Virus record (IMG/VR): IMGVR_UViG_3300020380_000001
Span: 242,501 to 306,500 of that record
Strand: one strand, 5' to 3'
DNA length: 64,000 bases
Source: a virus
A model generated the notes under the pieces. The model searched no databases. It worked only from the letters and a program-made list of their open reading frames with translations, and was not told where the DNA came from. Made by a program: the position numbers and the translations under genes. Shown piece after piece: positions 18,339-35,370 of the stretch. Position 1 is the first letter of the stretch. Every line of letters starts with the position of its first letter.

Positions 18339-19967
18339 ATGAAAGATATTGTATATTACTCAAAGTCGTTGTCTGCCTTAGAATCATTTAAAAAACAATG
18401 GCCCCATGCCATAATAGTAAACACGTCTGATATGGCGGAGGCAGTGCGAGTTTTAAAAAATACTTTTACTTCTGTAAGATACCTTATCGCGGAGGGTGAC
18501 GAAGACTTCCTACAGTACGTGCCTGCGGGCAGTGATGCTGACTTAATCCACACCTTTAATAACTCTCTTATCGTGCCTTGGCACACTGAAGTCACAAGCG
18601 ACTTTCATGGTTTCGGCATAGCTGTTTCAGCTAACATGAATCCAGAGTATGTCGAATTTGAAGGATTACAAAACATAACAGAGCCTGTTGATTACGTGCC
18701 GACCGATGCTATTACTGTGGTATACGGTACCGAGGAACGTTTTTATAGTGAGGATGTAATACACATACCATCGTTGGGCGAGGATGCATTGTGGCCATCA
18801 CTTGCCACTCAACCAAAGTCATGGATCCATTTTCAACATGTGTCGGTTGCTCAATCTGATACTACCTTGCGCAGTAAACTTGACCCCAACTCTATACACA
18901 GACGCGGGTCTAATTACTGCTTCACACTGCACAAGGACTTGATCGACACCAATCGTAAGTTTAAATTGGCACACTTAAAAGTTAAGGACCATCATGCGCC
19001 TAATACAGTAGTGAACCGAGCTTCGTGGCCTGTTTATCAAGATATCAATAAACTAGAAGCCAGCAATCACACCGAAGCACTCTTGGTGCCGCTCGGCTCT
19101 ACTGTCAACGACACTGCGTTAGAGTATGTACCGGAGATATACGAGCACGAAGCATCCGTCTTAATGAGGGAAACTGATTCACGTGGTTTTAGCATCGGCG
19201 GAGGCGGCGTCAAACTAGTCAACAAAGGCACTAATAAGTCAGTATACAGCAAAGCAATCGGCTCTTCCATTGCTGAGTTTGATATCATATTTTTATCAAA
19301 CAACGAGTCGTTCGCTGACGATCACTACGCTCAATTGAAAGAACGGTTCCCGCGTGCTAAACGAGTAAACGGCGTGAAGGGAATAGGCAAAGCACACCAG
19401 GTATGTGCTGAAGTCGCCAACACTGATATGTTCTGGGTAGTAGACGCCGACAGCGTGATTGTCCCTGATTTCAAGTTTGATTTCATTCCGCCCCGTAGCG
19501 CATGGCACAAGGTGTACGTTTTCAGGAGTAAGAACCCCGTTAACAATTTAATATACGGACACGGCGGTGTCAAGCTTTTTCCAAGGAACAGAGTACTGAG
19601 CGCGGATACTGATGTTGTAGACTTCACTACCAGTTTAGGCGACTTTAGCGCTGTCAGTGTACTAAGCAACATTAACGCATACGATAAAAGCGGCTGGCAT
19701 GTATGGCGTACCGCTGTACGAGAGGCGGCAAAGTTACAGGACCAAGTAAAGCACAATCCGGAAGACCTCGTATCGGCGCGTCGTCTAGAACAATGGTTAA
19801 CAGTAGGTGAAGGCAAGTACGGTAACATTTCATTAAAAGGCGCTCGTTTTGGCGCTGACCTATCACTAAATACGATTAGCATATCACCGATAAACAATGA
19901 CGAGTGGCTACGAGGATATTATGATGAGGTTCATGAATATGGAGATGACGTTTCCGAATTGGAGTGA
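18339..19967 (+). CDS. Glycosyltransferase-like (GT-A fold) protein
   Basis: 542 residues. The second half contains a GT-A-like core: FDIIFLSNNESFADDHYAQL near 314, KGIGKAHQVCAEVANTDMFWVVDADS around 347-372 with a DAD metal motif at 369-371, and GHGGVKLFPR near 430. The first 300 residues hold a separate alpha/beta region of unknown role. It probably transfers a sugar to phage DNA, virion or host surface, but donor and acceptor are unknown. It starts a three-gene plus-strand island and probably uses a late-type box. Confidence 0.6.
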   Translation: MKDIVYYSKSLSALESFKKQWPHAIIVNTSDMAEAVRVLKNTFTSVRYLIAEGDEDFLQYVPAGSDADLIHTFNNSLIVPWHTEVTSDFHGFGIAVSANMNPEYVEFEGLQNITEPVDYVPTDAITVVYGTEERFYSEDVIHIPSLGEDALWPSLATQPKSWIHFQHVSVAQSDTTLRSKLDPNSIHRRGSNYCFTLHKDLIDTNRKFKLAHLKVKDHHAPNTVVNRASWPVYQDINKLEASNHTEALLVPLGSTVNDTALEYVPEIYEHEASVLMRETDSRGFSIGGGGVKLVNKGTNKSVYSKAIGSSIAEFDIIFLSNNESFADDHYAQLKERFPRAKRVNGVKGIGKAHQVCAEVANTDMFWVVDADSVIVPDFKFDFIPPRSAWHKVYVFRSKNPVNNLIYGHGGVKLFPRNRVLSADTDVVDFTTSLGDFSAVSVLSNINAYDKSGWHVWRTAVREAAKLQDQVKHNPEDLVSARRLEQWLTVGEGKYGNISLKGARFGADLSLNTISISPINNDEWLRGYYDEVHEYGDDVSELE

Positions 19968-20996: not shown

Positions 20997-21290
20997 GGCC
21001 CATACCTTTTCTTCTATTTCGCTCGCCAAACGGAGAACGTGGTCAACGTCTATGACCACTTTCACCATCATTATATCATTCTTGCTTAACTTTTCGTTAA
21101 TCATTTCTAATAACGAAACACGCGCATCAGGTTCATAATCGACTTCAGTTACTTCCCCATTAACGTGTATTAAATCAATCCTGACAATGAACTTGAACGA
21201 TAGCTGTTTAATAGACAGACTAGATATGAGCTCACTCGCCTCGTATGGATCCGCTGTACAAAAGTCAGCCGCGGCGAGTACTATGTTCAT
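20985..21290 (-). CDS. Hypothetical protein, 101 aa
   Basis: Alpha/beta (LSFKFIVRIDLIHVNGEVTEVDYEP, DIMMVKVVIDVDHVLRLASEIEE). No family recognised. Tail-to-tail with the GNAT gene (12-base overlap) and a 4-base overlap with its upstream neighbour. Confidence 0.6.
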   Translation of the reverse strand: MNIVLAAADFCTADPYEASELISSLSIKQLSFKFIVRIDLIHVNGEVTEVDYEPDARVSLLEMINEKLSKNDIMMVKVVIDVDHVLRLASEIEEKVWASIR

Positions 21291-21952
21291 CGAGTAGACG
21301 CTCGCTTGCCGCCTTTGCGCAAGTCAGGTTCAAGTTCATACGCACGCTTGCGAAGTTCTTTGCCTGCTTTTTCCAAGTCACGTGCCATTTCGATAATAAC
21401 ACGGGCATCGCTTTTGGCAGTGTATTGCTCAACCACAGTCGTTAGCTCAAACTCAGTACCGGTTGGTCCGGTTGTCGGCGCAGGAGTGTTTTCAGCTTGC
21501 GTCACGGATTCTTGAATGTTTTCTACTTTACCGGCTTGGGCTAGTTCGGCGACGGCTTCAGCTGCGCCAATATCGTCGCCGTGCATCTTTGCGTTGAGTT
21601 CACGCAAACCAATTGACTTGGTGTCGTTTAAGATCATCACAACGGTGTCTACAGGAACTTTTTTAATGTAGCCGTAGTCTTGTAGGGTTTTAAGCACATT
21701 ACCTTTGTTTGTACTGAAAACACAGTCACGAGAACCTAAATAAGTCGCAACGTCATTCGATTGTTGTCCGGCAGTACTGCGCACAAATGTCATCATTTCA
21801 GTGTCATACGGGGCAGTAAGAGACTCAAACGGACATACTAGCGCATGCTCGTTATCGTAGGTATTTGGTGTAAGCGGAACACGGTGCCACAGCACGACAT
21901 ACTTGGTGCCAGTATTCACGCATTTGGCTAAATGTTTTGTAATTGTTTGCAT
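21287..21952 (-). CDS. Hypothetical protein, 221 aa
   Basis: The ATG at 21952 follows CGGAGAATAAC and nearly abuts the upstream stop, so I prefer it over the frame opening at 22021. The N-terminal 130 residues look globular (KYVVLWHRVPLTP, VDTVVMILNDTKSIGLREL). Then comes an Ala/Thr/Pro-rich linker and a helical basic tail (RDLEKAGKELRKRAYELEP). No recognised family. Confidence 0.65.
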   Translation of the reverse strand: MQTITKHLAKCVNTGTKYVVLWHRVPLTPNTYDNEHALVCPFESLTAPYDTEMMTFVRSTAGQQSNDVATYLGSRDCVFSTNKGNVLKTLQDYGYIKKVPVDTVVMILNDTKSIGLRELNAKMHGDDIGAAEAVAELAQAGKVENIQESVTQAENTPAPTTGPTGTEFELTTVVEQYTAKSDARVIIEMARDLEKAGKELRKRAYELEPDLRKGGKRASTR

Positions 21953-21953
21953 G

Positions 21954-22388
21954 TTATTCTCCGGTTTCTTCTTGTTCTTCTGGTTCTTGTTCCTTCGACT
22001 TTTCAGCGTTGGAACGATCAACTGACATTAACAAGCCTTTAAGCTTAGAAGCAACGACACCTATTTGTGCAAATTCTTCTAGCTGGAACGCACCCCTGTT
22101 CGCAGCCAAAGACAGCGCTTCAAGTAATATTCTTAAGTCAGCTACTGTTAACGAAGCTTGATGTTGACTAGCGGCTGCGGCTTGTGCAGGCGCGTCGTCG
22201 GATGTTTGCGTTTCTAGCGCGGCGGTTAAGTCGGCAATCATCGCTTTTATATCTTTAAGGCGGAGTTTCTCTGATCCGTTTACTGTGTACTGTCCACCTT
22301 TAAAAATTTCAATGCTAGGTTCTTCCCCGTGGGCTTGTTTGTAAAGCTCACTGAAATCAGCAATAATTTTATCAGATTGTTTTGACAT
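21954..22388 (-). CDS. Hypothetical helical protein, 144 aa
   Basis: Helical and charged, with an Ala/Gln-rich middle and an acidic tail (EQEPEEQEETGE). No recognised family. A TATAAATA box lies 40-47 bases upstream, an exact match to the T4 late consensus. It leads the three-gene operon ending at 20985. Confidence 0.6.
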   Translation of the reverse strand: MSKQSDKIIADFSELYKQAHGEEPSIEIFKGGQYTVNGSEKLRLKDIKAMIADLTAALETQTSDDAPAQAAAASQHQASLTVADLRILLEALSLAANRGAFQLEEFAQIGVVASKLKGLLMSVDRSNAEKSKEQEPEEQEETGE

Positions 22389-22490: not shown

Positions 22491-22528
22491 GTAACATTTT
22501 AAAATGTTACTAGATCTTGTAACATTAC
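22491..22528. repeat. Three half-site palindromic cluster (GTAACATT)
   Basis: A perfect palindrome, GTAACATTTT facing AAAATGTTAC (22491-22510), with a third copy GTAACATT at 22519-22526 that pairs again with the second. It lies between the VWA stop and the terminator. Purpose unclear. Confidence 0.5.
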
Positions 22529-23970
22529 TTCTTAGTACTGTCGTACCACACTGTTTTACCAAACGGTGCTTCAATGCGATGCTCTGGATCATCACAGATC
22601 AACCATATAGTCTCACAGTACTTGGGATCGCCCCAGCTGCCGTACGGATAACCGTCAGTAGCAACAAGTAGGATTTTAGGAACTTCACGCTCACGCTTCA
22701 AATAATCGAAGATTGATGTAAAGCTAGTACCACCACAGCCCACAAACTCAACCTTTTCTACATCAGCGATGTTGTTACGAGTAAAGTGGAAAATATTACG
22801 CGAGTCAACTTCATCATCAAACGCAAACACTTTCAAGCTAATTTGACTAAACTGGGAAAGCATGCCTTTAACTTCTGATAGGAACTCGTTCAGGTTGCGT
22901 TGACTAATTGAGCCTGAGTTGTCAATCGCAATTACTACTTCAACCTCATCGTCATACTCTTGTCCGGGTAGTACAAATGTACCGCGCCCAAATTGACGTC
23001 TATTAGGGCGTGCGTATGTGTGCAAGTTGCGGATATAACCTTTTGTACGCGCCATAAAGTATTGTTTCCAATTCACTTGAGGCTTTCTCAAGTCACGCAC
23101 AAAACGACGCACGTTGCCAGGAATATTGCCTGCACCCTTGCCCTGTGTCATATCAGCGTTGTCGTGCGCCTGCTGTACAGCGCCCACGATCTCGCGTTGC
23201 AATTCTTGAATCTCAGCGCGAGTCAGCTTGTTGCCCTTGCCGTCACCTTCTTGATCACCGTCTTTGGAGTCGCCTGACTGGCTCTCTGCGTGATCGTCAA
23301 GTGTTGAACCGTATACTTCTCTGAGCAACTGTTCTAATTCTTCGCGTGAAATTTGCTGTGACCCTTCACCGCTGCCGTCACCGTCACCGTCTTCGTCACC
23401 GGTGTCGCCTTGCCCACCACCAGCGCCGGGTACTTTCAGTCCGCCACCTTGGCCTGATCCGGATTCATCAACATCAATGCCGTGCTCGTTCTTCAGTTCA
23501 TCTTTTAACAAGTCATAAACTTGCTCTGAAGTCATACCGCTATACTTAGGGTCATACAAGCCGGTTGTTACGCCGTTAATAGTAGGCAGCGCTGTACCAA
23601 AAATTGTTGAGTTGAGCTCAATCATCTCACCATTAATAACATAGTCAGTTGCCCAACCCCATAACGTAACATTACGATTACCCACACGAGCAATACCACC
23701 GTGCTCGTATACGTTATGCATGATTTCATGGCCAATAACAAACGTTACGCCTTTTTGGTCGTCAATTGACTCGGTCCACTTTTCGTTAAACTTAACCCAG
23801 CGGCCGTTTGTTGCCATTGTATGAATGCGCGGATGATCAGCAGGCACTTGAGAAAATGCTAAGCGGCTAACTAAAACACCGAAGAACGGCTCGCTCAACA
23901 TGATGTTTACTACGGCCTGCTTGACTCGAAACTTCGCGTCATGCTTGTCTTTACTAAACGGGTTTCTCAT
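22525..23970 (-). CDS. VWA-domain protein with metallopeptidase-like N-terminus
   Basis: 481 residues. The N-terminal part (1-145) contains VIGHEIMHNVYEH with a zinc-type HExxH at 81-85. A Gly/Asp-rich flexible linker follows (about 168-250). The C-terminal part has a VWA domain whose MIDAS motif is AIDNSGSIS at 348-356 and a later GGTSF. This layout matches the DUF2201/VWA-like pair seen beside MoxR ATPases in bacteria. Here a MoxR-type ATPase is encoded 2 kb upstream in the same orientation. It could use ATPase-driven remodelling of a target complex. Own promoter upstream. Confidence 0.85.
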   Translation of the reverse strand: MRNPFSKDKHDAKFRVKQAVVNIMLSEPFFGVLVSRLAFSQVPADHPRIHTMATNGRWVKFNEKWTESIDDQKGVTFVIGHEIMHNVYEHGGIARVGNRNVTLWGWATDYVINGEMIELNSTIFGTALPTINGVTTGLYDPKYSGMTSEQVYDLLKDELKNEHGIDVDESGSGQGGGLKVPGAGGGQGDTGDEDGDGDGSGEGSQQISREELEQLLREVYGSTLDDHAESQSGDSKDGDQEGDGKGNKLTRAEIQELQREIVGAVQQAHDNADMTQGKGAGNIPGNVRRFVRDLRKPQVNWKQYFMARTKGYIRNLHTYARPNRRQFGRGTFVLPGQEYDDEVEVVIAIDNSGSISQRNLNEFLSEVKGMLSQFSQISLKVFAFDDEVDSRNIFHFTRNNIADVEKVEFVGCGGTSFTSIFDYLKREREVPKILLVATDGYPYGSWGDPKYCETIWLICDDPEHRIEAPFGKTVWYDSTKK

Positions 23971-24003
23971 AATCTTAAACCTTATTTGTTATTAAGTACG
24001 TCG

Positions 24004-24042
24004 AATATAGCAAAGGTAACCAAAGTAGTAAACACCTTTGGT
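24004..24042 (-). promoter_or_regulatory. VWA gene promoter with overlapping inverted repeat
   Basis: The minus strand reads TTTACT (24027-24032), 17 bases, extended -10 TGCTATATT (TATATT at 24004-24009). The inverted repeat ACCAAAG / CTTTGGT (24019-24025 and 24036-24042) straddles the -35, a possible operator. Confidence 0.45.
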
Positions 24043-24064
24043 CACTTTTCTATACTTTTTTATT

Positions 24065-24358
24065 TTACTCGTCGTTTCCGCAATGGACGCAAACATATGA
24101 ACGGTGTGTTGGTTTTTTACAAGCTTTGCAGCGCGTAGTGGGAACGAAAGCGTCAACTAGGGTGCGCAGAAGCTCGTTTTCTTCGCGTAGCGACTTTAAT
24201 TCGTTATCCAAGTCGCTATTAGCTTTGTCGGGTTCAACTGCCGCTTGCGGCTCTTGCGGCGCTTGAAGATTTTCTAGCTCAGCGAGCTTGGTTTTCATCT
24301 TTTCAAGACACACGGCGGTTTCTGCGTTGAGCTCACGTAACTTTTTTAAGTATTCCAT
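24065..24358 (-). CDS. Coiled-coil protein with C-terminal zinc ribbon, 97 aa
   Basis: Start taken at the ATG at 24358 (MEYLKKLRELNAE), one base beyond the upstream stop. Two coiled-coil segments (about 1-32 and 50-72) precede a C-terminal CKAC...CVHC pair that should bind one zinc. No named family. It sits between the AAA+ and VWA genes and may be an accessory to them. Confidence 0.65.
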   Translation of the reverse strand: MEYLKKLRELNAETAVCLEKMKTKLAELENLQAPQEPQAAVEPDKANSDLDNELKSLREENELLRTLVDAFVPTTRCKACKKPTHRSYVCVHCGNDE

Positions 24359-24359
24359 T

Positions 24360-24611
24360 TTATTTCTCGTCGGCAAATGTAATATAAAGCAACTTGTCAC
24401 CGCACCAAGAGTGGGCTGCGGCTTCTTCTAGCGCTGTGTTAGTTGTGCGGGTTACTAAGTCCGCAGGAATATCAAACGTAGCAAGCAGGGTTTCTGCGGC
24501 GCTGCGCCAGTTGCTTGTCGCTGCCATATCGAAAGTACACTTGAGTTTCGAAAAGCTATGCTCTAGAACTTCAACAGTAACAACGGGACGAGTAAATTTT
24601 TCAGTAACCAT
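24360..24611 (-). CDS. Hypothetical protein, 83 aa
   Basis: The frame opens at 24704 inside the AAA+ gene, but the ATG at 24611 (MVTEKFTRPVVTV) follows GGAGC at 8-base spacing and avoids that overlap. Beta-rich start and a helical middle. No recognised family. It lies between the AAA+ gene and the zinc-ribbon gene. Confidence 0.6.
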   Translation of the reverse strand: MVTEKFTRPVVTVEVLEHSFSKLKCTFDMAATSNWRSAAETLLATFDIPADLVTRTTNTALEEAAAHSWCGDKLLYITFADEK

Positions 24612-24642
24612 AATACTATGCTCCTTAGTCAGCAGGGAGGCC

Positions 24643-25854
24643 TTATGCCTCCGCTCCTTTGTTTGCTTTTTTCTCTTCGAGTAGGAATCTGAACTTAGCT
24701 TCACGACGCATCAAGCTGTACACTGCGCTCTTTTTCCAAGCGTTAGGGTTACGACGTGCTAGTCCGCCGATTTTAAGCGCTGTACGGATGCTAACTTCAT
24801 CCAAGTCATGCATATAAACATTCAGGAAGTCAACGATTTCTTGCTTCATGTCGTCACTCAGTTCCAAACGGTTTTTCTCAAACAGTCCAGTACTCACTAA
24901 GCTTTTGATTCTGCGAATTTTATCTTCGACTGTACCGATTTCCAAATCATAGTACAAGCTTCTTGACTTAAGTGCATCCAAGTGAGGTTTAATACGCACA
25001 CTACGAACACGATCAAAGTCAAGGTTAGAGATAAATATCACACTACCGCAGAAGTCAAACTGTCGTGGAACCCCTTCTTCTTCAAGGATACGCGACTCAG
25101 CCATCCAGCTAATTGTGCGTTTATGGTCAGTATCAAGTGCCGCTTTTAAAATGTTTAAGCTAACGTCGTCATAAAACAAAGTATCACAGTCATCAAACAC
25201 CAATACTTGACCTTTGTCTCTGTACTGAAATAGCTCTTGATAAAGCGCTATCGGGGTTATTGTACCTTTAATAACGCGATATGTACGTTCTTCAGAACCA
25301 AACGGGTTAGTAGCTGTGTGGTCGCCTGACAGGAACATGCCGTTCGTGCATAAAAAGCGGTAGTAGTCTTTGGCTACTGCGTTCACTAAGTGACTTTTAC
25401 CGATACCAGCAGGGCCACTAATAATCATGCTTGACACGTCACCTTCACACACCGACCAAGCGATATCACGTAGTATATCAAAGCTTTGCTCAATGCGCTC
25501 AAGTGCTTCTTCTTCAGTCTCAGAATTACGGTACGCTAGTTCGTAGCTTGTGTCGTCACAAGCTTCACCAACCGCCTCAGCGATTGCTGTTTTCTGCGCT
25601 TGGGCTTTTTTAGCGTCTTTCATTGCTTTGCTTTGCAAAGTAATTGTTTCACCGTCGTATTCTTCTAAAAACTCAAAGTTTTCAACGTCGTCGGAAAAAA
25701 CACGCTTGCCTTTCTTCTGCATTGGAACAGGAACAGTAACGTAATATGAATTTTTAACAGGAAGGAAAGTTGCAGAATTAGAGGTAGTTTCTAAAACACC
25801 GTTTAGTTCAGAATCGCCAGTAGTAGTCCAGCCATCAACAATACGTACAAACAT
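24643..25854 (-). CDS. AAA+ ATPase
   Basis: 403 residues. Walker A GPAGIGKS at 147-154, Walker B VLVFDDCD at 217-224, a sensor-1 VIFISNLDF near 290, and a C-terminal helical lid with RTALKIGGLARR (330-390). The N-terminal 130 residues are a separate domain of unknown type. The core resembles DnaC/IstB-like or phage packaging-type AAA+ proteins only at motif level, so I do not name it. Neighbouring MoxR and VWA genes suggest a functional module. Own promoter. Confidence 0.8.
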   Translation of the reverse strand: MFVRIVDGWTTTGDSELNGVLETTSNSATFLPVKNSYYVTVPVPMQKKGKRVFSDDVENFEFLEEYDGETITLQSKAMKDAKKAQAQKTAIAEAVGEACDDTSYELAYRNSETEEEALERIEQSFDILRDIAWSVCEGDVSSMIISGPAGIGKSHLVNAVAKDYYRFLCTNGMFLSGDHTATNPFGSEERTYRVIKGTITPIALYQELFQYRDKGQVLVFDDCDTLFYDDVSLNILKAALDTDHKRTISWMAESRILEEEGVPRQFDFCGSVIFISNLDFDRVRSVRIKPHLDALKSRSLYYDLEIGTVEDKIRRIKSLVSTGLFEKNRLELSDDMKQEIVDFLNVYMHDLDEVSIRTALKIGGLARRNPNAWKKSAVYSLMRREAKFRFLLEEKKANKGAEA

Positions 25855-25911
25855 AATTTCACCTTTAAATTCTGCGCTACTGCCTAATTGCTGTAACGCG
25901 TCAATGTCATA

Positions 25912-25940
25912 ATAATAGATTATTAGGTGGATGGTTGCAA
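25912..25940 (-). promoter_or_regulatory. Host-type promoter for AAA+ gene
   Basis: The minus strand reads TTGCAA (25935-25940), 17 bases, TATTAT (25912-25917), about 60 bases before the start. Confidence 0.65.
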
Positions 25941-25976
25941 GAAAAGATTAAAAGAAAATTGATTTTTTTCCAAACA

Positions 25977-26029
25977 TAAAAAAAGGCTGCAATTGATGCA
26001 GCCTTCAAAGGGTAGGGCGTTGCCGCCCT
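25977..26029 (-). terminator. Tandem hairpin terminator after moxR-like gene
   Basis: The minus strand has an AGGGCG-4-CGCCCT stem (26014-26029), then AAGGCTGCA-5-TGCAGCCTT (25983-26005) and a run of T. The second hairpin is the terminator proper. Confidence 0.8.
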
Positions 26030-26040
26030 TGTCAGAAATC

Positions 26041-27177
26041 TTAAGCCAAACCAAGCATCGGTCCGTACTCAACAATGAATTTCGCAAAGTTCTTGTTTTG
26101 AGGCGGTACAATTTGTTCGCGGTTTGCGGCAGTCATGTACTTCGCTCTCCAGCGTCTGATCAGCGAGCTAACAGTAAAGAACGTCATCTCTGAAGTACAG
26201 AACTTTTCACAGAATTCGTACAAGTTGTCGAACATTACGCTCGTGTTAGCGTTGCCGATGCCCGTTTCCTTTTTGTCCTTGTCGTACTGCTCAATCATTT
26301 CAAGCACAGCACCGTAAGTCAAGCTGTAAAACGCTGATTGCTTTTCAATTTTCAAGTTTTTGTCGTAGTTGCCTTCAAGGATTTGTCGCGGAGTTGGTAG
26401 CGAGCTAATGTACTCCATGTGAACAACAAACTCGTTCGCAATACCGTCACCAACAGCACCGGCAACCATTAAGTCAAGTGTTTCGTTGTCAGCTTCACCT
26501 TTTTGTAGGATGTCGCTAACCACTTCCCATGAACGCGGTGTTGCAAAGCTGTACGACTCGTTTTTAAGCGCTTCGTCAAATGTGTTTAAGTGGCTCTTGC
26601 GGTGCATTAAGTAAGCAATAACCTCACGCGCCAAGCCGTTTTCAATTGCCCATTCCTGCCATTCTTCGAAGTTAACTTCAAGATTTACAAAGATAAAGCG
26701 GTTACGTAGCGGCATAGCCATGTCGAAAGTCGCGCCGCGATCTTCTGTTCTGTTACCCGCAGCAACAATATCAACGCCCGGTGGAAGTTCGTAGTCACCT
26801 AGCTTGCGATCAAGTACTAGCTGATAAGCTGCCGACTGTACAAGAGGCGGTGCAGTGTTAAGCTCGTCAAGGAAAATAATAGCGTTAGCTAGTTTTTCGT
26901 TAGTAGGAAGCGTTGACGGCTCTGCCCATTCCATCTTTTTAGTCTCTGGGTCAAAGTAAGGTACACCACGAATATCGGTGCTGTCAAACTGTGCTAGACG
27001 CATGTCAATTACTGGACGGCCTGAGCGGCTTGCAATTTGTGCAATAATTTGGGATTTACCTACACCAGGCTGTCCCATAATCATAATAGAACGCTTGATA
27101 CGGAATGCTGTTTCAACGCACTTAACAAGTGATTTCGGCGTTGCTTTGCGTGTGGTGTCTATACTATTCTCTGACAT
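26041..27177 (-). CDS. MoxR-type AAA+ ATPase
   Basis: 378 residues. Walker A GQPGVGKS at 35-42, RLAQFDSTDIRGVPYFD around 60-76, Walker B IIFLDELNTAP at 100-110, then a sensor-1 VAAGNRTED and an arginine-finger region near MPLRNRFIFV. This is the MoxR pattern. MoxR ATPases work with VWA proteins as chaperone-like remodellers. The VWA partner candidate is at 22525. It has a strong host-type promoter, so is probably expressed early. Confidence 0.92.
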   Translation of the reverse strand: MSENSIDTTRKATPKSLVKCVETAFRIKRSIMIMGQPGVGKSQIIAQIASRSGRPVIDMRLAQFDSTDIRGVPYFDPETKKMEWAEPSTLPTNEKLANAIIFLDELNTAPPLVQSAAYQLVLDRKLGDYELPPGVDIVAAGNRTEDRGATFDMAMPLRNRFIFVNLEVNFEEWQEWAIENGLAREVIAYLMHRKSHLNTFDEALKNESYSFATPRSWEVVSDILQKGEADNETLDLMVAGAVGDGIANEFVVHMEYISSLPTPRQILEGNYDKNLKIEKQSAFYSLTYGAVLEMIEQYDKDKKETGIGNANTSVMFDNLYEFCEKFCTSEMTFFTVSSLIRRWRAKYMTAANREQIVPPQNKNFAKFIVEYGPMLGLA

Positions 27178-27219: not shown

Positions 27220-27247
27220 AGTATAGACATCCATATTTTTTTGTCAA
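27220..27247 (-). promoter_or_regulatory. Strong host-type promoter of moxR-like gene
   Basis: The minus strand reads TTGACA (27242-27247), 16 bases, TATACT (27220-27225), about 45 bases before the start. Confidence 0.75.
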
Positions 27248-27271: not shown

Positions 27272-30200
27272 TTATTTTTTATCGACACTTCCGTCTATAT
27301 TGATTATGAACTGATCACCGTTAAACGGGTTGTCTATTTGTTTAAGTACGCCCAAGTCGCCAGGTATTGTTCTATCTGTTCTCAAGTCCCATGCTTCTGT
27401 ATCGAAGTTATAAACGTAAACCTGATCAGTTTGTACTACATATACAGTACCTTGATCAAAAGCACCTTCTAAATATATGTTAGACCAAGTACTGCTTCGC
27501 TGGCTGCGGTTCGCATATCCATAACTATGCGGCTCATTTCCTACCCATGCTAATTCTGGATATTGTTCAGTATCCACTTCTATTAGTGAGTTAGGATTAT
27601 CCTTAGGGTCACCGTTAGGATTGCCGCGCGTTGTTACCCACATACGTATAATAGGACCATCGCGTTCTATACGACAACGCCTTGCACTTGTGCGCCATTC
27701 GTTCACACCGTTATGTGTGGCAGTATAAGGCGCAGTAATAGTGAGTACCGCTTCTACCAAGTCATTTGGTCTAGCCGCATTCGAGCGAACATACACAAAA
27801 GCCCATCCTATATCATTAGTCATGCCATCATAGGTGTAGCCGTTTTGTGTATTATACGCAAGTAAAGAATGGTTAATTGAGCCTTCACGCTTAAAGGCAG
27901 CAATCATATCAATCTCATCGTCGTCGTTATCGTCAGAAGAAAGAGTAGCCTCAAAAGTCAAACTACTTGTTTTATCCGGGCTAACAAAGCCAGTCAAGTT
28001 AGGATGGTTCTCTGTGCCGATTATTTGCTCAAGTGCTGCGTCATAATAGTATGAATCAGCACCGTTATCCGCAGCGGTCCCGCCCGGATAGTAATAGCCG
28101 TTAGAGATACGGTCCCAATTGTTGAACACCTCAGCCGGCGTAGGCGCGTTATAGTCACGCATATATGTCTGAGCCTCAGACAGTGTTTCGAACATAAGCG
28201 CTTGTTGGATAGGTAGTACCGCTGCTGAAATTGTAACTATGCCTTCATGGTTAGTAGCCAACAACCTTTCTTCTAAGTTCGTTATAGCCACACGGAACTG
28301 TTCTTCTGTTTCAGTAACATTATCACGCAACACACGAACGGATATATTCTTAACGCTGTCACCTTCATTAAACGTTACTGACGCATTAGTCACATTGAAG
28401 TCCGGCTCAAGCACGGTGTTGTAGTTCTCAATCTCTGCTGTATTTGACAACCCAGCATGGCTGCCGGTTAACTGCTCTAGTCCGTCTATAATAGGATTGC
28501 CACCGTATGTTGCTCGATAGTTGTCAAAGTTAGTAGCAACAAGAGAGCGATGTACGCTACCCTTAAAGTTAGCATAAAACCTACGAGCAAGGTTATTGGC
28601 GTTGGCAACGTATCCGGACGATCCTGTGTCATTACCGTTAGACGTCACTATATACAGGCCTACTTTATCACGGCGCACTGCGCTTTCGATAGCATCACCT
28701 AGTAAACTAGATATATTTCCGGGGTAATCCTGCGATAAGCTACTAACGAAAATAATTGCGCCATAGTTAGATAGCGTTGTTGGATCCACTTCACTGATAT
28801 ATTTGGTGCTTATTATATACCCGGCTTCGTTTAACAAATTGCGCATGGCTTTGCCGTACGAGGTGCTCGTAGTGGTATCTTTCACACTCAGGGAGCTTTC
28901 GTTATCACCAAGTATAAGAACGTTAGATTTGCCAGTGCCGTATGTTAGGAAGTCCATTATATTCCTAAACATTTTATATTCAACCGTATTGTTTGACGGA
29001 CGGTCATCCCATGTACTGTTTCTGTACTTTTGAACAGACGGGTCAAACACAACTTTAATATCACTGAAGTCGCAGTACATTAAGCCCGTTCTTCCTGACG
29101 TATCGCTGAACGCTTCCTGTGGGCGCGACACTGTACTGTTAGCTCTAGCCGTTTCATCCACAGTAGAGTAATTAACAGTTATATTACGACCCTCGACAGG
29201 CTCGCTCGCAATTATCTGCAAGTCAACATCAATATACGCACTGTCTTCCGGCTCCGATACCGTAGCTGACGTGATACGGAACTTAGGATAGTTAACAAGG
29301 TTTCGTATTGTAAAGGTTGCATTGCCGTCAACCACTTCACCGGTGTCATTGTCTGTTACTTCTAAATTAATAGTTACTTCAGTATCATCCGGCACATCAA
29401 AAGTAGTAAGAAGCGCATTTAATAAATGCGGGGCTGAGATGCTGTAAAAACTATTGCCAGACACTTGGCTCCACTGGTAGCTAAAATTGCCGCTGCCGCC
29501 CGTAATAACTGGCACTAAGCCAAGTCCCGCGTCTTGTTGATTCTCGTCCACAGACATTGAGTTCATACGCAGAGCTAGGCGCTCACGTGTGTCAATTACG
29601 TTAATAGTTGATTCTGCCAGGTACTCTTCCCATGAATATAAATCAATGACGCGCACTTGCAACACAAGGGATTCGTTCTCGTAAAATACAGGGTTGGTAC
29701 CTGCGTTCAATACGGCTACAAGCTGGTCAGGATCTGTTATGGTAAGGTCCATGCCGGGTTCACTTGTGCTCAGTATGCGCCAAGCATAGTTAAACGCATT
29801 AGAGCCGCCTGTTACTGTAACCAAGTCTGCCAAGTTTAGCGACGAGCGGTGATCCATAGTAGCGCCATCCAACGTAACAGTGGCTTCTGAAACTTCGTAA
29901 CCGTCTTGCTCGTCTAAGTGAGTAACAACTGTATACTCTGGCTTAGAGTCAGTCATGTCAATATTGGCCACACTATACGAGTGGTCAACGTTTATTCTAA
30001 ACTCGCCGCCTATTGGCTGTGTTTCAGGGTCACTATGACATAATACCCTAAACGAAACAAAGTTAGCCTGAACTGCCGTCTGTAGCGCGTTCAGTTGTAT
30101 GCCTGGATCGCCCGGACCAAATTTGGCTTGGACTTCAATACGATTGGAAGTGCCCGCGTCATAATATCCGCTCGGCAGGCTATACTCATAAACAGTTTGG

Positions 30201-31057
30201 TACTCGTTAGTCAAGTCATAAAAGCCCAGAATATTTCCCGTACCCACACTGTTTTCAGAAGTCATGCCATACACTGTGAACTTAAGCGCACCGACATTGT
30301 CAACTAGTGTCTGCCACTTTGCATTTTCTGCGGGGTCGCCTGGCGGTGGTCCCTCAAGCGGATCAGTGTCATAATAACTAGGCGCGTCGTATGAATCAGG
30401 TTCAGTATAAGTAGGCGTTACAATAATACTTGAGCCGGCATTAAAGAAGTACCTAGCCAAGTTGTATTCATCCCAAACAGCTTCGAACTCAAATTCCAAG
30501 CTTTCTGACCATAGCTTTGTACGAGTACTTGAAGCGCCGAAGCCGTCAACCGTGGTTAGCAAATTACCGGGTTCCACAGTAAAGCGCTTCGCAGCAATGT
30601 TTTCCATAAGCGTAGTGAGCGGGGCGGCAGTGCGTTGATCATGGGCGTAAATCAGCTCGCCTTGTTGAATATCAGCAGGGAACGAATCTGTGATTGTTTG
30701 CCTTTCAGTTTCACCTAGATTAATGTGGTTAACTAGCTTGCGAATTATGCCCGCAAGGGTGCCCCACTCTTGCTGAAACTTGTACTTGTAATCAGCAGTA
30801 GAGCCTGTCGTTGTACCCGACACAAGGTCTGAAATATCACTTACTTTGCCCGAGCCGTCACTTGCATTTTCAGGGGCAATGACATCCGAACGACCGTAAC
30901 CAAAGCCGCCATCGTTTATGCCAGTTTCACCTAAGTGACGATCATTATATAGTTCATTAACAATAAACGCAAAGCCGTTATAGTCTTCAGCATCTATCGA
31001 TCCGCCTTCTACATAAGACGCCATTAATTCTAAAATGTTATTTTTTGTTGCTGCCAT
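27272..31057 (-). CDS. Tail/adhesin protein with Ig-like, Calx-beta and inserted domains
   Basis: 1261 residues. The N-terminal domain (about 1-340) is shared with three neighbouring genes (GGFGYGR, then a block around ARYFFNAGSSII). It is followed by two Ig-like modules with TGG-S-x-x-x-Y-x-W cores. A Calx-beta repeat follows whose two halves (about 593-645 and 885-940) are separated by a Rossmann-like alpha/beta insert. The C-terminus (about 950-1230) looks like a lectin or concanavalin-type beta sandwich. It probably forms part of the tail fibres or host-binding spikes. It is the last gene of the 32-kb virion block; no hairpin terminator is clear after it. Confidence 0.75.
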   Translation of the reverse strand: MAATKNNILELMASYVEGGSIDAEDYNGFAFIVNELYNDRHLGETGINDGGFGYGRSDVIAPENASDGSGKVSDISDLVSGTTTGSTADYKYKFQQEWGTLAGIIRKLVNHINLGETERQTITDSFPADIQQGELIYAHDQRTAAPLTTLMENIAAKRFTVEPGNLLTTVDGFGASSTRTKLWSESLEFEFEAVWDEYNLARYFFNAGSSIIVTPTYTEPDSYDAPSYYDTDPLEGPPPGDPAENAKWQTLVDNVGALKFTVYGMTSENSVGTGNILGFYDLTNEYQTVYEYSLPSGYYDAGTSNRIEVQAKFGPGDPGIQLNALQTAVQANFVSFRVLCHSDPETQPIGGEFRINVDHSYSVANIDMTDSKPEYTVVTHLDEQDGYEVSEATVTLDGATMDHRSSLNLADLVTVTGGSNAFNYAWRILSTSEPGMDLTITDPDQLVAVLNAGTNPVFYENESLVLQVRVIDLYSWEEYLAESTINVIDTRERLALRMNSMSVDENQQDAGLGLVPVITGGSGNFSYQWSQVSGNSFYSISAPHLLNALLTTFDVPDDTEVTINLEVTDNDTGEVVDGNATFTIRNLVNYPKFRITSATVSEPEDSAYIDVDLQIIASEPVEGRNITVNYSTVDETARANSTVSRPQEAFSDTSGRTGLMYCDFSDIKVVFDPSVQKYRNSTWDDRPSNNTVEYKMFRNIMDFLTYGTGKSNVLILGDNESSLSVKDTTTSTSYGKAMRNLLNEAGYIISTKYISEVDPTTLSNYGAIIFVSSLSQDYPGNISSLLGDAIESAVRRDKVGLYIVTSNGNDTGSSGYVANANNLARRFYANFKGSVHRSLVATNFDNYRATYGGNPIIDGLEQLTGSHAGLSNTAEIENYNTVLEPDFNVTNASVTFNEGDSVKNISVRVLRDNVTETEEQFRVAITNLEERLLATNHEGIVTISAAVLPIQQALMFETLSEAQTYMRDYNAPTPAEVFNNWDRISNGYYYPGGTAADNGADSYYYDAALEQIIGTENHPNLTGFVSPDKTSSLTFEATLSSDDNDDDEIDMIAAFKREGSINHSLLAYNTQNGYTYDGMTNDIGWAFVYVRSNAARPNDLVEAVLTITAPYTATHNGVNEWRTSARRCRIERDGPIIRMWVTTRGNPNGDPKDNPNSLIEVDTEQYPELAWVGNEPHSYGYANRSQRSSTWSNIYLEGAFDQGTVYVVQTDQVYVYNFDTEAWDLRTDRTIPGDLGVLKQIDNPFNGDQFIINIDGSVDKK

Positions 31058-34000
31058 TATGACCTTTCACTTATTGTTCTTGTAGACACTGCTCGTATTT
31101 CATAATACTCAGTACCGCTTACTACCACAGCCAGGGTGTCTGCAACTGAATCCCATTCAATAAATATACCTGCGCTCGGCGCAGTGTGCGGGTTACCCTT
31201 AGACGACATTGTGTAGCCGTCGGGTGCTACCATGTAATATTTATTACCAGTGGCGTTCGCATTAGTGAGTACGTTAGTAAACAAGTCGCGGTAATTACTT
31301 GGCAAATAAAAGTAGCCGAATGTTAAAAACTCTGCATTCTCTAGTGTTGTGCCACCGTGCGAGTTTGTTCCTCTACATTGTGCCCATACACATATTTCTA
31401 TGTCATTTGTTGCGCTTGCTACTGATGCAGGCAAGTCGTACTCAACATTTACCTTATTCCAAGTATCAACCGATGTTGCTTGTAACAGTAAGGAAGAGTA
31501 GTCAACCGGCGCATAAGACCTTTCCATAACGCTAACAATATTAGGCAGTGGGGTGCCAGTATTATCCAACAGCTCACATAACCTAACCGTGCCATCAAAC
31601 GTAAGTACCAAACGATACGTAGGTGAGCACTCAATAACAGCGACATAATTGTCAGTGCTACGCACGTCATAAGTAGACATGCCGCTTGAACTGAATATAC
31701 TGTCGTCTAAAACAAAGTGATACTGAGTAGATAAAATATCAGTATTGCCCAGCGCACTTGTGTCAACTGTTACCATATATTCTTTGCCTGAGTCCCAATT
31801 AAATGAACTCACATTAGGCGCGACAACCTCTGTCCAAATTTGGTTGGTTGCTGTACCTGCAGGGGCTGTATTACCTGCATTATTGTAATAAACAGGCCTT
31901 TCGTTTAGTTCAAGTATTTGTGAGCCAGTACTAATGTCAGGAATAGTTTTAAATTTAGACCTGTTTGTCTTCCAATCAGTGTCAGTATCTCTATCAGTCG
32001 GACCCCTAAATATAGCCGATATACCAACTGACTGGCTACGTGACGATCCGCCTATTACTATCTCACTAGCAGGTGTTGCCGACGAATTAAACGGCTGTAA
32101 TACTTCATAAGCAGGGACTATTCTGTTCGAAACTAAACTTACCAAATCAGTATTTGATGCGCCTCTATCAGTTACACTTAATAAGGCATACTCGTGGATG
32201 CCGCCTCTAAACGTATTGTGGTTCACTGCGAAACCATCTTGCTCTTGATAAGGCTGTGCACGTTCAGTTTTTGGCTCAATCCAAATAGTAGCAGGATAGT
32301 CGCCATTGTCGATTGTGCTTAGGCCAGATCCACTGTAATAATTTACCCAACTAAAGTTAGCGTTTTCAATCGTTACCGTAGCACTGAAATTAGCTGTACG
32401 ATTGGCAGTGGTGTCAGAAACAGTCACATCAACAGTAATTGTCTGTGATACGCCAAGATCAGGAATCGTTAACGTTGGGTTAGCTGCGGCTGGATCATCA
32501 ATTGTAATGCCCTGGTTACTCGGATTAAACGACCAAGCGTAGGTGTAATCACCGGAGCCACCAGCTAAGTTATCAATTGACATCACGGTAGTGTCATCAT
32601 CATTGACAGTTTTGTCGTTTAGTGTACCGGTAATCTGTGGCCAATTGTAATTGACATCGAATATAATCTCATTACTTGCCTGCACAGTGCCTTCGTCGTC
32701 AGTTACTACTAATGTTAGTGTTTTAGTTTGCGGTGTGCTGTCACCATCGATAGCGCCAGTAAACGTTAAATCAGTCCCGGTAACATTTACGTCAGCCGGG
32801 GTAGTCCATGCGTACGAGTAAGGTGCGTAACCGCCGCTAATTGATATTAACGAACTCAAATTATACGTTGAATCATGTAACATTGTGAACGACGGTGATG
32901 CGTTACTGCCGTTACCTAACGTAACAGATAAAGGTGTTGTTTGATCACTAACGGTAATCTCGGATACAACTTGCTCTACTTCGCCGGTATTATCATCTGT
33001 TACGGTTACGCGTACAGGAAGCACAAAAGTATAGTCAACATAGTCAACATCAATTACCGGTGTGCTGCCAGAATCAGTCACGTTGTACACGTCAATAAAA
33101 CGGGCAGTGTTGCCTGCTGAATCAAGTACTGGCGTATTTTTATCATATGCCCAGCTTACACTGTAAGATCCGGAACCGCCAGTCACACCTAAATAATCAC
33201 CAAGTGTTATTGCTGATTTTTCAGTCATGCTGTTAGCAGTAAACACAACTTCAAGAGGCGGTACATTGTTGTTTATTGTTATTGTGCTTGACGCAGTAAC
33301 CACTTCACCAGATTCGCCTAAGTCAGTAACAGTGATTTGATAATCAACTGCCTGAGGCTCAGTGCCGCCGATATAATCACTGGTATAAACTGACCCAACA
33401 AGGTTACCGTATCCCGGCGTTAGAATTTCATACACCACGTCAAGCGGTCCGTTACCGCCTGAATATGATATAACAGTACTCAAGTCAACGCTCTGTGTCT
33501 CGTCAACTGAAACAGTACCCGCGCTCGCAGTAACAGGTGGCGTCAAATCATATACGTTCACAGTAGCAGTGTCAGTCACAGTTGTACCGTCACCCGTGTC
33601 AGTTACTTCAACAATAAGAGTAAACGCCTTATCGCCCACGGCTTCTGTAACTTGGATTTGCGGCGCTTCTATATCAGTGGCAGTTATGAAAGAGTACAGG
33701 GAGTCATTAACCGGGAAAACAGACCACTCATATGTGAAGGGTCCTATACCGCCGGTGCGGTTTAGTTTGCCGGCCAAGTCAAGTACCGCATTTTCATCAA
33801 CATCGTATGAGTCTTGATTTAAGCTCGCACTGAATGGCGCAGTCGTGTCTTTTACAAGTATGACGCCGTATGCTGTTACTTGTTCATTTAACACTGTATC
33901 AGTAACAGTAAGGGTCATTTGAACTGCGCGGTCACTGTTTACGTTGGCTGCTGTAATTTGCGCGTTAAGACTAGCACTGTCATCTATTGTCAGGAAACTA

Positions 34001-35370
34001 GCAGAGTAAGACCAGCTATACGCATATGAACCAGATCCGCCAGTTAAGGTAACAAGACTCCCCAAGTTATAACTTGTTTCTTCATCCAACGTTACATCAT
34101 CAACGGATAGTTCCATTTCCGGCGTAGTATCAGTCACCGATAGCGTAACAGTAAAATCATAAGTTTGGCGCGTTACAATATCATACACGTTGAGATTAAA
34201 GTCAACATCATATGCAAAATAATAACTGCCATTGTAAGTGGGCGTAAACAGAGCGCGTAACTTGTCGTCGTCTGTTAACGTATGACCGGCAGGGAGTTCA
34301 CTAGGCGGTGCTGGGATTGACCAAAGGAACTCAAAGTCGCCTGATCCACCAAGCACAGAAACCACAGTTGACATATCAACGTCAACATCATCTTCAGTTA
34401 TTGATAGTACTTGTTGTGACACTTGCACTGGTTGATATACTACCGCGTCTACTGAGTCTAGTCCAGTAACAATAACAGACGATGGCAGTAATGGCCTAAA
34501 TTCATCACTAGCATATACCAAGTCAATATTCACATACAACTCAGTGCCAACCGGGTTACCCGAAATGTCCAGGTACCTTACACGGATATAGATGTCTTTG
34601 TCAACTCTACGTAACTGAACACTAACAGAGTTACCATCCACATCTTCTAAACGATAGATTGTACTGAATGTACTGCTAAGTGAATAAAACCCAATGTTAT
34701 CGGCAGGCTGTTCACTATTAGACAATGTTGTGTTATTAAAGTCAACTACTATTTCAGGGAAATTAGGCAATAATGATTCCCAAGCTGCGTTGCTTGATGG
34801 GTTACCAGTACTGCCAGGCGCAAAGTCTGCGTTAATCTTTATCTTGCCACCAGTGTTAAAGAAGTAACGCATATCCTTATAACTATTAAACACTAATCGT
34901 GACTCGTGCTGGATCGCACTTTCCCAAAGTTCTGTTCTCGAAGATGCGCCATAAACGCCTCCAGAGCTGCTAGAAACTCTATTAACGGCAACGTTAAATC
35001 TATTGTCGCTAATTTGATCTAGGGCGTCTGTGATCTTCTTCGGGTCACTTACGAATGCACTAATAATGTCGTTAACTGCTGGATTACTGTCATCAGTCAA
35101 TACGTCATCAACTGAAATATCATCTTCCAACACTGTGCCTTGGTGTGCTGCGATACGGTTAATATTGTTGATTAACTCAACCCATTCACTAGCGGTTATA
35201 AGTTGCTCATCAAACTTAGTTGTAAAAGACTCAACTTTACCGTAACCGAAACCCGCAACGTTTACGCCGCTAGCAGTTCTACTCGCGACATCACCTATTA
35301 GCTTTTCTACAGTTTCCTGAAAGCCATTGAAGTGTTCGTTTTCAATTAAATTGTTTATATTATAACTCAT
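31057..35370 (-). CDS. Tail/adhesin protein with seven Ig-like modules
   Basis: 1437 residues. The N-terminal domain is shared with the neighbours (AGFGYGK, MRYFFNTGGKI). Then seven Ig/PKD-like modules, each marked by a GG-x-x-x-x-Y-x-W type core (LGGSGDFEFLWS, TGGSGSYAYSWS, TGGIGPFTYEWS, SGGNGPLDVVYE, TGGSGSYSVSWA, SGGYAPYSYAWT, AGGSGDYTYAWS). The C-terminal 400 residues are beta-rich and unlike the repeats, perhaps receptor-binding. Its stop shares TAATG with the next gene. Modular repeats of this sort often vary in number between strains. Confidence 0.75.
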   Translation of the reverse strand: MSYNINNLIENEHFNGFQETVEKLIGDVASRTASGVNVAGFGYGKVESFTTKFDEQLITASEWVELINNINRIAAHQGTVLEDDISVDDVLTDDSNPAVNDIISAFVSDPKKITDALDQISDNRFNVAVNRVSSSSGGVYGASSRTELWESAIQHESRLVFNSYKDMRYFFNTGGKIKINADFAPGSTGNPSSNAAWESLLPNFPEIVVDFNNTTLSNSEQPADNIGFYSLSSTFSTIYRLEDVDGNSVSVQLRRVDKDIYIRVRYLDISGNPVGTELYVNIDLVYASDEFRPLLPSSVIVTGLDSVDAVVYQPVQVSQQVLSITEDDVDVDMSTVVSVLGGSGDFEFLWSIPAPPSELPAGHTLTDDDKLRALFTPTYNGSYYFAYDVDFNLNVYDIVTRQTYDFTVTLSVTDTTPEMELSVDDVTLDEETSYNLGSLVTLTGGSGSYAYSWSYSASFLTIDDSASLNAQITAANVNSDRAVQMTLTVTDTVLNEQVTAYGVILVKDTTAPFSASLNQDSYDVDENAVLDLAGKLNRTGGIGPFTYEWSVFPVNDSLYSFITATDIEAPQIQVTEAVGDKAFTLIVEVTDTGDGTTVTDTATVNVYDLTPPVTASAGTVSVDETQSVDLSTVISYSGGNGPLDVVYEILTPGYGNLVGSVYTSDYIGGTEPQAVDYQITVTDLGESGEVVTASSTITINNNVPPLEVVFTANSMTEKSAITLGDYLGVTGGSGSYSVSWAYDKNTPVLDSAGNTARFIDVYNVTDSGSTPVIDVDYVDYTFVLPVRVTVTDDNTGEVEQVVSEITVSDQTTPLSVTLGNGSNASPSFTMLHDSTYNLSSLISISGGYAPYSYAWTTPADVNVTGTDLTFTGAIDGDSTPQTKTLTLVVTDDEGTVQASNEIIFDVNYNWPQITGTLNDKTVNDDDTTVMSIDNLAGGSGDYTYAWSFNPSNQGITIDDPAAANPTLTIPDLGVSQTITVDVTVSDTTANRTANFSATVTIENANFSWVNYYSGSGLSTIDNGDYPATIWIEPKTERAQPYQEQDGFAVNHNTFRGGIHEYALLSVTDRGASNTDLVSLVSNRIVPAYEVLQPFNSSATPASEIVIGGSSRSQSVGISAIFRGPTDRDTDTDWKTNRSKFKTIPDISTGSQILELNERPVYYNNAGNTAPAGTATNQIWTEVVAPNVSSFNWDSGKEYMVTVDTSALGNTDILSTQYHFVLDDSIFSSSGMSTYDVRSTDNYVAVIECSPTYRLVLTFDGTVRLCELLDNTGTPLPNIVSVMERSYAPVDYSSLLLQATSVDTWNKVNVEYDLPASVASATNDIEICVWAQCRGTNSHGGTTLENAEFLTFGYFYLPSNYRDLFTNVLTNANATGNKYYMVAPDGYTMSSKGNPHTAPSAGIFIEWDSVADTLAVVVSGTEYYEIRAVSTRTISERS

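Follow-up and report, generated by a model that had tools for sequence, protein, structure and literature searches.

We analyzed a set of genes encoding a MoxR-type AAA+ ATPase, a protein that joins a metallopeptidase-like HExxH domain to a von Willebrand factor A (VWA) domain, and a second AAA+ ATPase in a 306.5-kb virus contig (IMG/VR record IMGVR_UViG_3300020380_000001). The DNA examined, here called the window, covers the final 64 kb of this record, which comes from a giant marine phage. The neighbors include genes of T4 type for a late sigma factor, a clamp loader and a baseplate wedge, as in a T4-like jumbo phage. The genes themselves are genuine: all five open reading frames (ORFs) of the original prediction, namely the three large genes and two small ones between them, were found on the minus strand at the positions claimed. 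Two further genes lie downstream of the VWA gene and are here called X1 and X2 (Table 1).

The MoxR ATPase and its VWA partner

The MoxR protein carries Walker A (GQPGVGKS) and Walker B (FLDE) motifs, a sensor 1 asparagine, an arginine finger and a sensor 2 arginine, as expected of the MoxR clade, the roles of the two arginines being assigned by position. Residues G38, K41, S42, D104, E105, N142, R160 and R215 were invariant in 15 divergent phages. The best PDB relative of the MoxR profile was Midasin (2e-26), and this match, together with matches to AAA_5/AAA_3, is consistent with membership in the MoxR clade. Judged by its family, the protein would form a hexameric ring.

The partner, hereafter the VWA protein, matched Pfam families PF13203 and PF09967 above their curated cut-offs (95.3 versus 23.2 bits and 61.8 versus 26.4 bits, respectively), and both DUF2201_N and DUF2201 were matched by 16/16 divergent members of its family. 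In the window protein, HEIMH occupies residues 81-85 and DNSGS residues 350-354, which together with T415 and D439 gives the DxSxS...T...D pattern of a metal ion-dependent adhesion site (MIDAS). Residues H81, H85, D109, D350, S352, S354, T415 and D439 were invariant in 16 phages. Automatic scoring found HExxH in 85/85 VWA proteins and DxSGS in 84/85, and two outliers were found by eye: the VCO139 protein has DESCS, and that of Atu_ph07 (L015:4938-6227), which was outside the 85 scored, has HQILH, the catalytic E being naturally replaced by Q. An AlphaFold model of the VWA protein (mean pLDDT 70) placed HExxH inside one helix (72-90) and the invariant D109 in the next (101-119). This is the helix layout expected of a zincin-like site, and in the model D109 is a candidate third zinc ligand. 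When the C-terminal domain of the model was searched with Foldseek, MDN1/Rea1 MIDAS domains were among the VWA domains matched.

The PHROGs database and many RefSeq records name this DUF2201 metallopeptidase-VWA protein 'HNH endonuclease' (e.g. L011:11977-13161 and L017:7221-8363). Among the Pfam matches of the 16 divergent phrog_1314 members (E 0.01), no HNH family was found. Because all 16 matched DUF2201_N/DUF2201 and none matched HNH, the label is unsupported, and we rejected an HNH endonuclease identity for the VWA protein.

Of 50,697 phage records searched with tblastn, 844 contained a match to MoxR and 745 a match to the VWA protein. In addition, a scan of IMG/VR with the MoxR profile yielded 79 new loci, 60 of which had at least 1.3 kb of downstream sequence; in 58 of these 60, the next gene downstream on the same strand encoded the VWA protein, usually after a gap of ~70 nt. 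This count was seeded from MoxR only. Scans of IMG/VR with single sequences returned siblings of the window and two distant relatives only. At 58 of 60 loci, MoxR and VWA are paired far more often than chance would allow, and the pair is found in hundreds of tailed phages. The original prediction of such a pair in a phage was thereby upheld, with intact motifs. It had named two outcomes that would speak against it, a failure of the genes to co-occur in relatives and a degenerate MIDAS or HExxH site; for the pair neither was seen, since relatives keep both genes together and the two motifs are maintained.

The pair itself is not new, as a MoxR-metallopeptidase-vWA pair has been described in jumbo phages (Iyer et al. 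2021, PMC7824862). Their group 2.2 pair has the same two-gene architecture, domain fusion and T4-like jumbo setting, whereas in the window a lineage-specific transcription unit lies between the two genes. The closest annotated relative, gp149/gp144 of Pseudomonas phage PA5oct, is 42% identical in MoxR and 36% in the VWA protein. As in the window, X1, X2 and a relative of T4 NrdC.10, the family to which the second AAA+ ATPase belongs, are nearby in PA5oct. Unlike in the window, the pair is separated there by a homing endonuclease gene plus three others, and the NrdC.10 relative lies at a distance of 9.5 kb on the downstream side. Escherichia phage N4, a 70-kb podovirus, has a homologous pair, gp24/gp25, in the same order and with HExxH and MIDAS intact; X1 and X2 were not found near this pair, and an NrdC.10-type ATPase was not found anywhere in N4. 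Both are core genes of the Schitoviridae: a comparison of 25 N4-like phages counts them among 14 core genes, and they are transcribed with the middle rather than the late genes (PMC4193335).

Among cellular systems, NorQ/NorD, CbbQ/CbbO and RavA/ViaA likewise consist of a MoxR ATPase with a MIDAS-bearing VWA partner, and their targets are respiratory or metabolic enzymes. To our knowledge, partners of the NorD, CbbO and ViaA type lack the DUF2201 zincin-like N-terminal domain. The same domain distinguishes the pair from CobS/CobT. Viral cobST clusters of archaeal tailed viruses have been proposed to boost cobalamin synthesis together with host CobN (PMC8651126), and MoxR is weakly similar to the phage CobS-like family phrog_249. 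However, MoxR scored 16 bits against a CobS equivalog cut-off of 558.55, its partner matches DUF2201, CobN was not found in the window genome, and this genome encodes a class I ribonucleotide reductase (RNR; small subunit present), which needs no B12. We therefore rejected a CobS/CobT identity and regard a role in cobalamin synthesis as extremely improbable.

The second ATPase and the transcription layout

The original prediction had grouped the pair with the second AAA+ ATPase as a three-part module and had suggested this ATPase and a zinc-ribbon coiled-coil protein as novel partners. The second ATPase has a Walker A motif, GPAGIGKS, and is about 31-35% identical to T4-like relatives; compared with T4 NrdC.10, it has about 110 N-terminal residues beyond the tblastn match. 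The family comprises 1261 records, mostly T4-like. Its members are widely annotated as 'thioredoxin', a name apparently inherited from nrdC. Both small ORFs are shorter than in the program-made listing, their likely starts having been read in the DNA. In a sibling contig, whose DNA is ~93% identical across the MoxR-to-VWA stretch, the two small genes differ by 23 nt/8 aa and 49 nt/18 aa. There are no indels and the frames are kept, and both ORFs are therefore real genes. As predicted, the 97-aa product has a coiled-coil-like stretch followed by a terminal CxxC...CxxC. No credible match to either small protein was found among the 50,697 phage records.

Genome-neighborhood counts did not bear out the module or the suggested partners. 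With MoxR lineages defined at 60% identity, an NrdC.10-type AAA+ was present anywhere in the locus in 2/27 lineages (the window's own and PA5oct) and between MoxR and VWA in 1/27, represented by the window and its near-identical siblings. Six of 17 annotated pair-bearing genomes had a full NrdC.10-type match, at a distance from the pair of 9.5 kb in PA5oct, about 25 kb in Atu_ph07 and otherwise >170 kb (linear record). T4, 44RR, ValKK3 and DAC23 have the AAA+ without the pair, and Hallingskeid is another example of the two being unlinked or occurring apart. In view of these counts, the second AAA+ was rejected as a conserved partner. It is possible that the AAA+ and the zinc-ribbon protein act with the pair at least in the window lineage, as the adjacency is preserved in sibling contigs and the PA5oct relative lies on the same strand as the pair. 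We consider this very unlikely, given the neighborhood counts and the fact that the AAA+ has its own promoter-like site and lies after a terminator-like hairpin. Instead, the AAA+ and its two small companions read as a lineage-specific insertion and a probable chance neighbor of the pair. In PA5oct, a putative homing endonuclease gene (gp145, L011:10425-11921) lies between MoxR and VWA; the intergenic gap of the pair thus appears to be prone to insertion.

Table 1. Genes and putative transcription signals at the locus (window positions).
Feature	Position	Strand	Description
X2	21287..21952	-	221 aa from likely ATG (listed ORF extends to 22021); phrog_15894 family; conserved downstream of X1
X1	21954..22388	-	144 aa; phrog_13789 family; conserved directly downstream of VWA
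VWA protein (DUF2201)	22525..23970	-	481 aa; phrog_1314; zincin-like HExxH domain at the N terminus, then an acidic linker and, at the C terminus, a VWA domain with complete MIDAS
Promoter-like site of VWA gene	24004..24032	-	TTTACT-17-TATATT with TG; 9/12 consensus; hexamers kept in sibling
Coiled-coil and zinc-ribbon small protein	24065..24358	-	97 aa from likely ATG 24358; lineage-specific
Small protein	24360..24611	-	83 aa from likely ATG 24611; lineage-specific
Second AAA+ ATPase	24643..25854	-	403 aa; T4 NrdC.10 family (phrog_1250); E 8.3e-76 to family profile, match over the ATPase domain
Promoter-like site of second AAA+ transcription unit	25912..25940	-	9/12 consensus; both hexamers altered in sibling
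Intrinsic-terminator-like hairpin 3' of MoxR	25982..26006	-	found in the sequence
MoxR/midasin-type AAA+ ATPase	26041..27177	-	378 aa; phrog_1297; profile match E 3.5e-94
Promoter-like site of MoxR	27220..27247	-	TTGACA-16-TATACT; 11/12 consensus; unchanged in sibling

The claim that each large gene has its own promoter held at the level of consensus matches, in a region with 17 promoter-like sites observed versus 9.5 expected. With such a site ahead of each of the three large genes and a terminator-like hairpin after MoxR, the sequence reads as three putative transcription units: MoxR, the AAA+ with the two small genes, and VWA. A perfect inverted repeat, ACCAAAG-N10-CTTTGGT (24019-24042), spans the -35 region of the VWA promoter-like site. 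It is not conserved in the sibling contig and was rejected as an operator.

Directly upstream of MoxR are genes for two very large proteins (27272-31057 and 31057-35370) with Calx-beta, PKD-like and SprB-like repeats and with tail-fibre or Hoc-like matches. Elsewhere in the window, a single ORF of 3504 aa (38888-49402) stands amid tail/baseplate genes, and a 751-aa protein with two AAA+ regions (1826-4081) belongs to phrog_4871, 'ATP-dependent protease' (Clp-like), representing a further phage-encoded ATPase machine.

Gene order around the pair and its possible role

Clustering of the ORFs that flank the pair yielded a conserved order in T4-like jumbo phages: rnh-type exonuclease-U170-U133-MoxR-VWA-X1-X2-(often dihydrofolate reductase, DHFR)-ThyA or ThyX. 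A glycosyltransferase-like gene follows on the opposite strand, and its window counterpart is at 18339-19967. The exonuclease at the head of this order is of the 5'-3' type and homologous to T4 rnh (E 7e-22). The corresponding region of T4 reads rnh-dsbA-33-59-32-frd-td, and the pair therefore sits between the same flanking functions. We considered whether X1, X2, U133 and U170 are divergent forms of T4 dsbA/33/59/32, for which hmmsearch and hhalign gave no sequence support. A thymidylate synthase was found no more than 9 kb downstream in 8/22 lineages with enough sequence (binomial p about 2.5e-5, assuming independent lineages, which they only partly are). In related phages the non-homologous ThyA (L036, L046, L071) and ThyX (L029, L081, L087) fill the same operon slot, about 4 kb downstream of MoxR.

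Genes with related functions also accompany the pair in other phages. N4 gp24-gp25 precede dCTP deaminase and the thymidylate synthase-like gp30, and the neighborhood in RHEph16 resembles that of N4 (dCTP deaminase, thymidylate synthase). Thymidylate synthase is near the pair in S-TIM5, exonuclease V and DNA polymerase in Presley, and helicase and polymerase in VCO139. In phiFa, an RNase H gene lies between the two pair genes.

The conserved gene order and the timing of the N4 middle genes favor a target in the replication phase over virion assembly. Our preferred reading is that the pair serves DNA replication or the supply of DNA precursors (dNTPs), rather than the finished virion, and we give it an even chance of being correct. 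As for mechanism, a current view of NorQ/NorD (PMC9976466) is that the MoxR ring is plugged by the VWA partner, the MIDAS of which binds the target. Similarly, the MoxR hexamer of the phage pair may dock the VWA domain of its partner, whose MIDAS metal would grip an acidic residue of a target complex. ATP hydrolysis by the ring would then pull on or remodel this MIDAS-held target through the VWA partner, as in NorQ/NorD, CbbQ/CbbO and Midasin, and the N-terminal zincin-like domain might cut the remodeled target, or hold it.

Several observations weigh against a replication-phase role, and many of them speak for the proposal of Iyer et al. 2021, made by analogy with p618 of Acidianus two-tailed virus (PMC7824862), that the pair acts in virion assembly. 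As a chaperone-peptidase, it would remodel and trim a structural protein as the head or tail matures. The other flank of MoxR in the window is tail-fibre-like, and structural genes adjoin the pair just upstream in RaK2, fEgEco12 and XbC2. Likewise, a second structural module lies near the gp24/gp25 homologues of N4-like roseophages (PMC4193335). The PA5oct MoxR (gp149) was detected by mass spectrometry in a virion preparation, according to a note in its record, and a virion preparation of Staphylococcus phage DC4 yielded one MoxR peptide, which its authors treated with caution. This single peptide occurred alongside GroEL and UvsX, which suggests carry-over. The genomic context that we describe suggests replication, in contrast to that proposal. 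In addition to middle transcription in N4, the repeated linkage to exonuclease, DHFR, ThyA/ThyX, dCTP deaminase and DNA polymerase across lineages argues against assembly, as does the presence of the pair in podovirus-type N4-like and T4-like jumbo phages, whose virions are very different. We consider virion assembly rather unlikely.

The remaining points against the replication-phase reading concern the linkage and the target. The lineages share ancestry, and the p-value for thymidylate synthase linkage is therefore optimistic. The HQILH motif of Atu_ph07, in place of HExxH, suggests that peptidase activity may be dispensable. In the window genome, the pair is distant from the genes for ThyA, class I RNR and the 5'-3' exonuclease. 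No RNR was found in the pair-bearing phages N4, VCO139 and RHEph16, which weakened the candidacy of phage RNR as a universal target.

The latter result would also fit a host target, in which case the pair would disassemble or cleave a host complex early or midway through infection, for takeover or counter-defence. MoxR-VWA systems are in some cases players in biological conflicts (PMC7159879). The occurrence of one conserved machine, possibly with a protease domain, across phages of many hosts is consistent with a target that is itself conserved among these hosts. Counter-defence genes are typically patchy, however, unlike the pair, which belongs to the core set of 25 N4-like phages (PMC4193335) and keeps a stable operon position. 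A host target thus seems distinctly unlikely.

Companions of the pair and implications

While ThyA, class I RNR and the exonuclease are located elsewhere in the window genome, X1 and X2 are retained beside the pair. The pair, X1 and X2 therefore constitute the part that is kept together, and the core is MoxR and VWA, plus the regularly linked X1 and X2. A structure model of X2 had no fold match in the PDB, and its matches in BFVD were only to unnamed or uncharacterised viral proteins; no relative of assigned function, in sequence or fold, was found for X2. Returning to the replication-phase reading, we tentatively propose a more specific form of it, which we consider rather unlikely. MoxR, VWA, X1 and X2 may together form a remodeling/proteolysis system of T4-like giant phages, with X1 and X2 as substrate, adaptor or third component. 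The system would control the replisome or a complex for dTMP/dNTP synthesis, and would persist at its position when a non-homologous enzyme replaces the neighboring thymidylate synthase.

The papers that we read describe neither this replication-side gene order nor the interchangeable thymidylate synthases, the X1/X2 companions or the unsupported HNH label. In N4-like phages both genes belong to the core set, the pair is also common in giant T4-like phages, and its VWA protein bears the HNH endonuclease label in many records. X1 and X2, rather than the second ATPase, emerge as candidate partners of the pair, and the evidence from gene order makes the question of virion assembly versus replication genetically addressable in phage N4.

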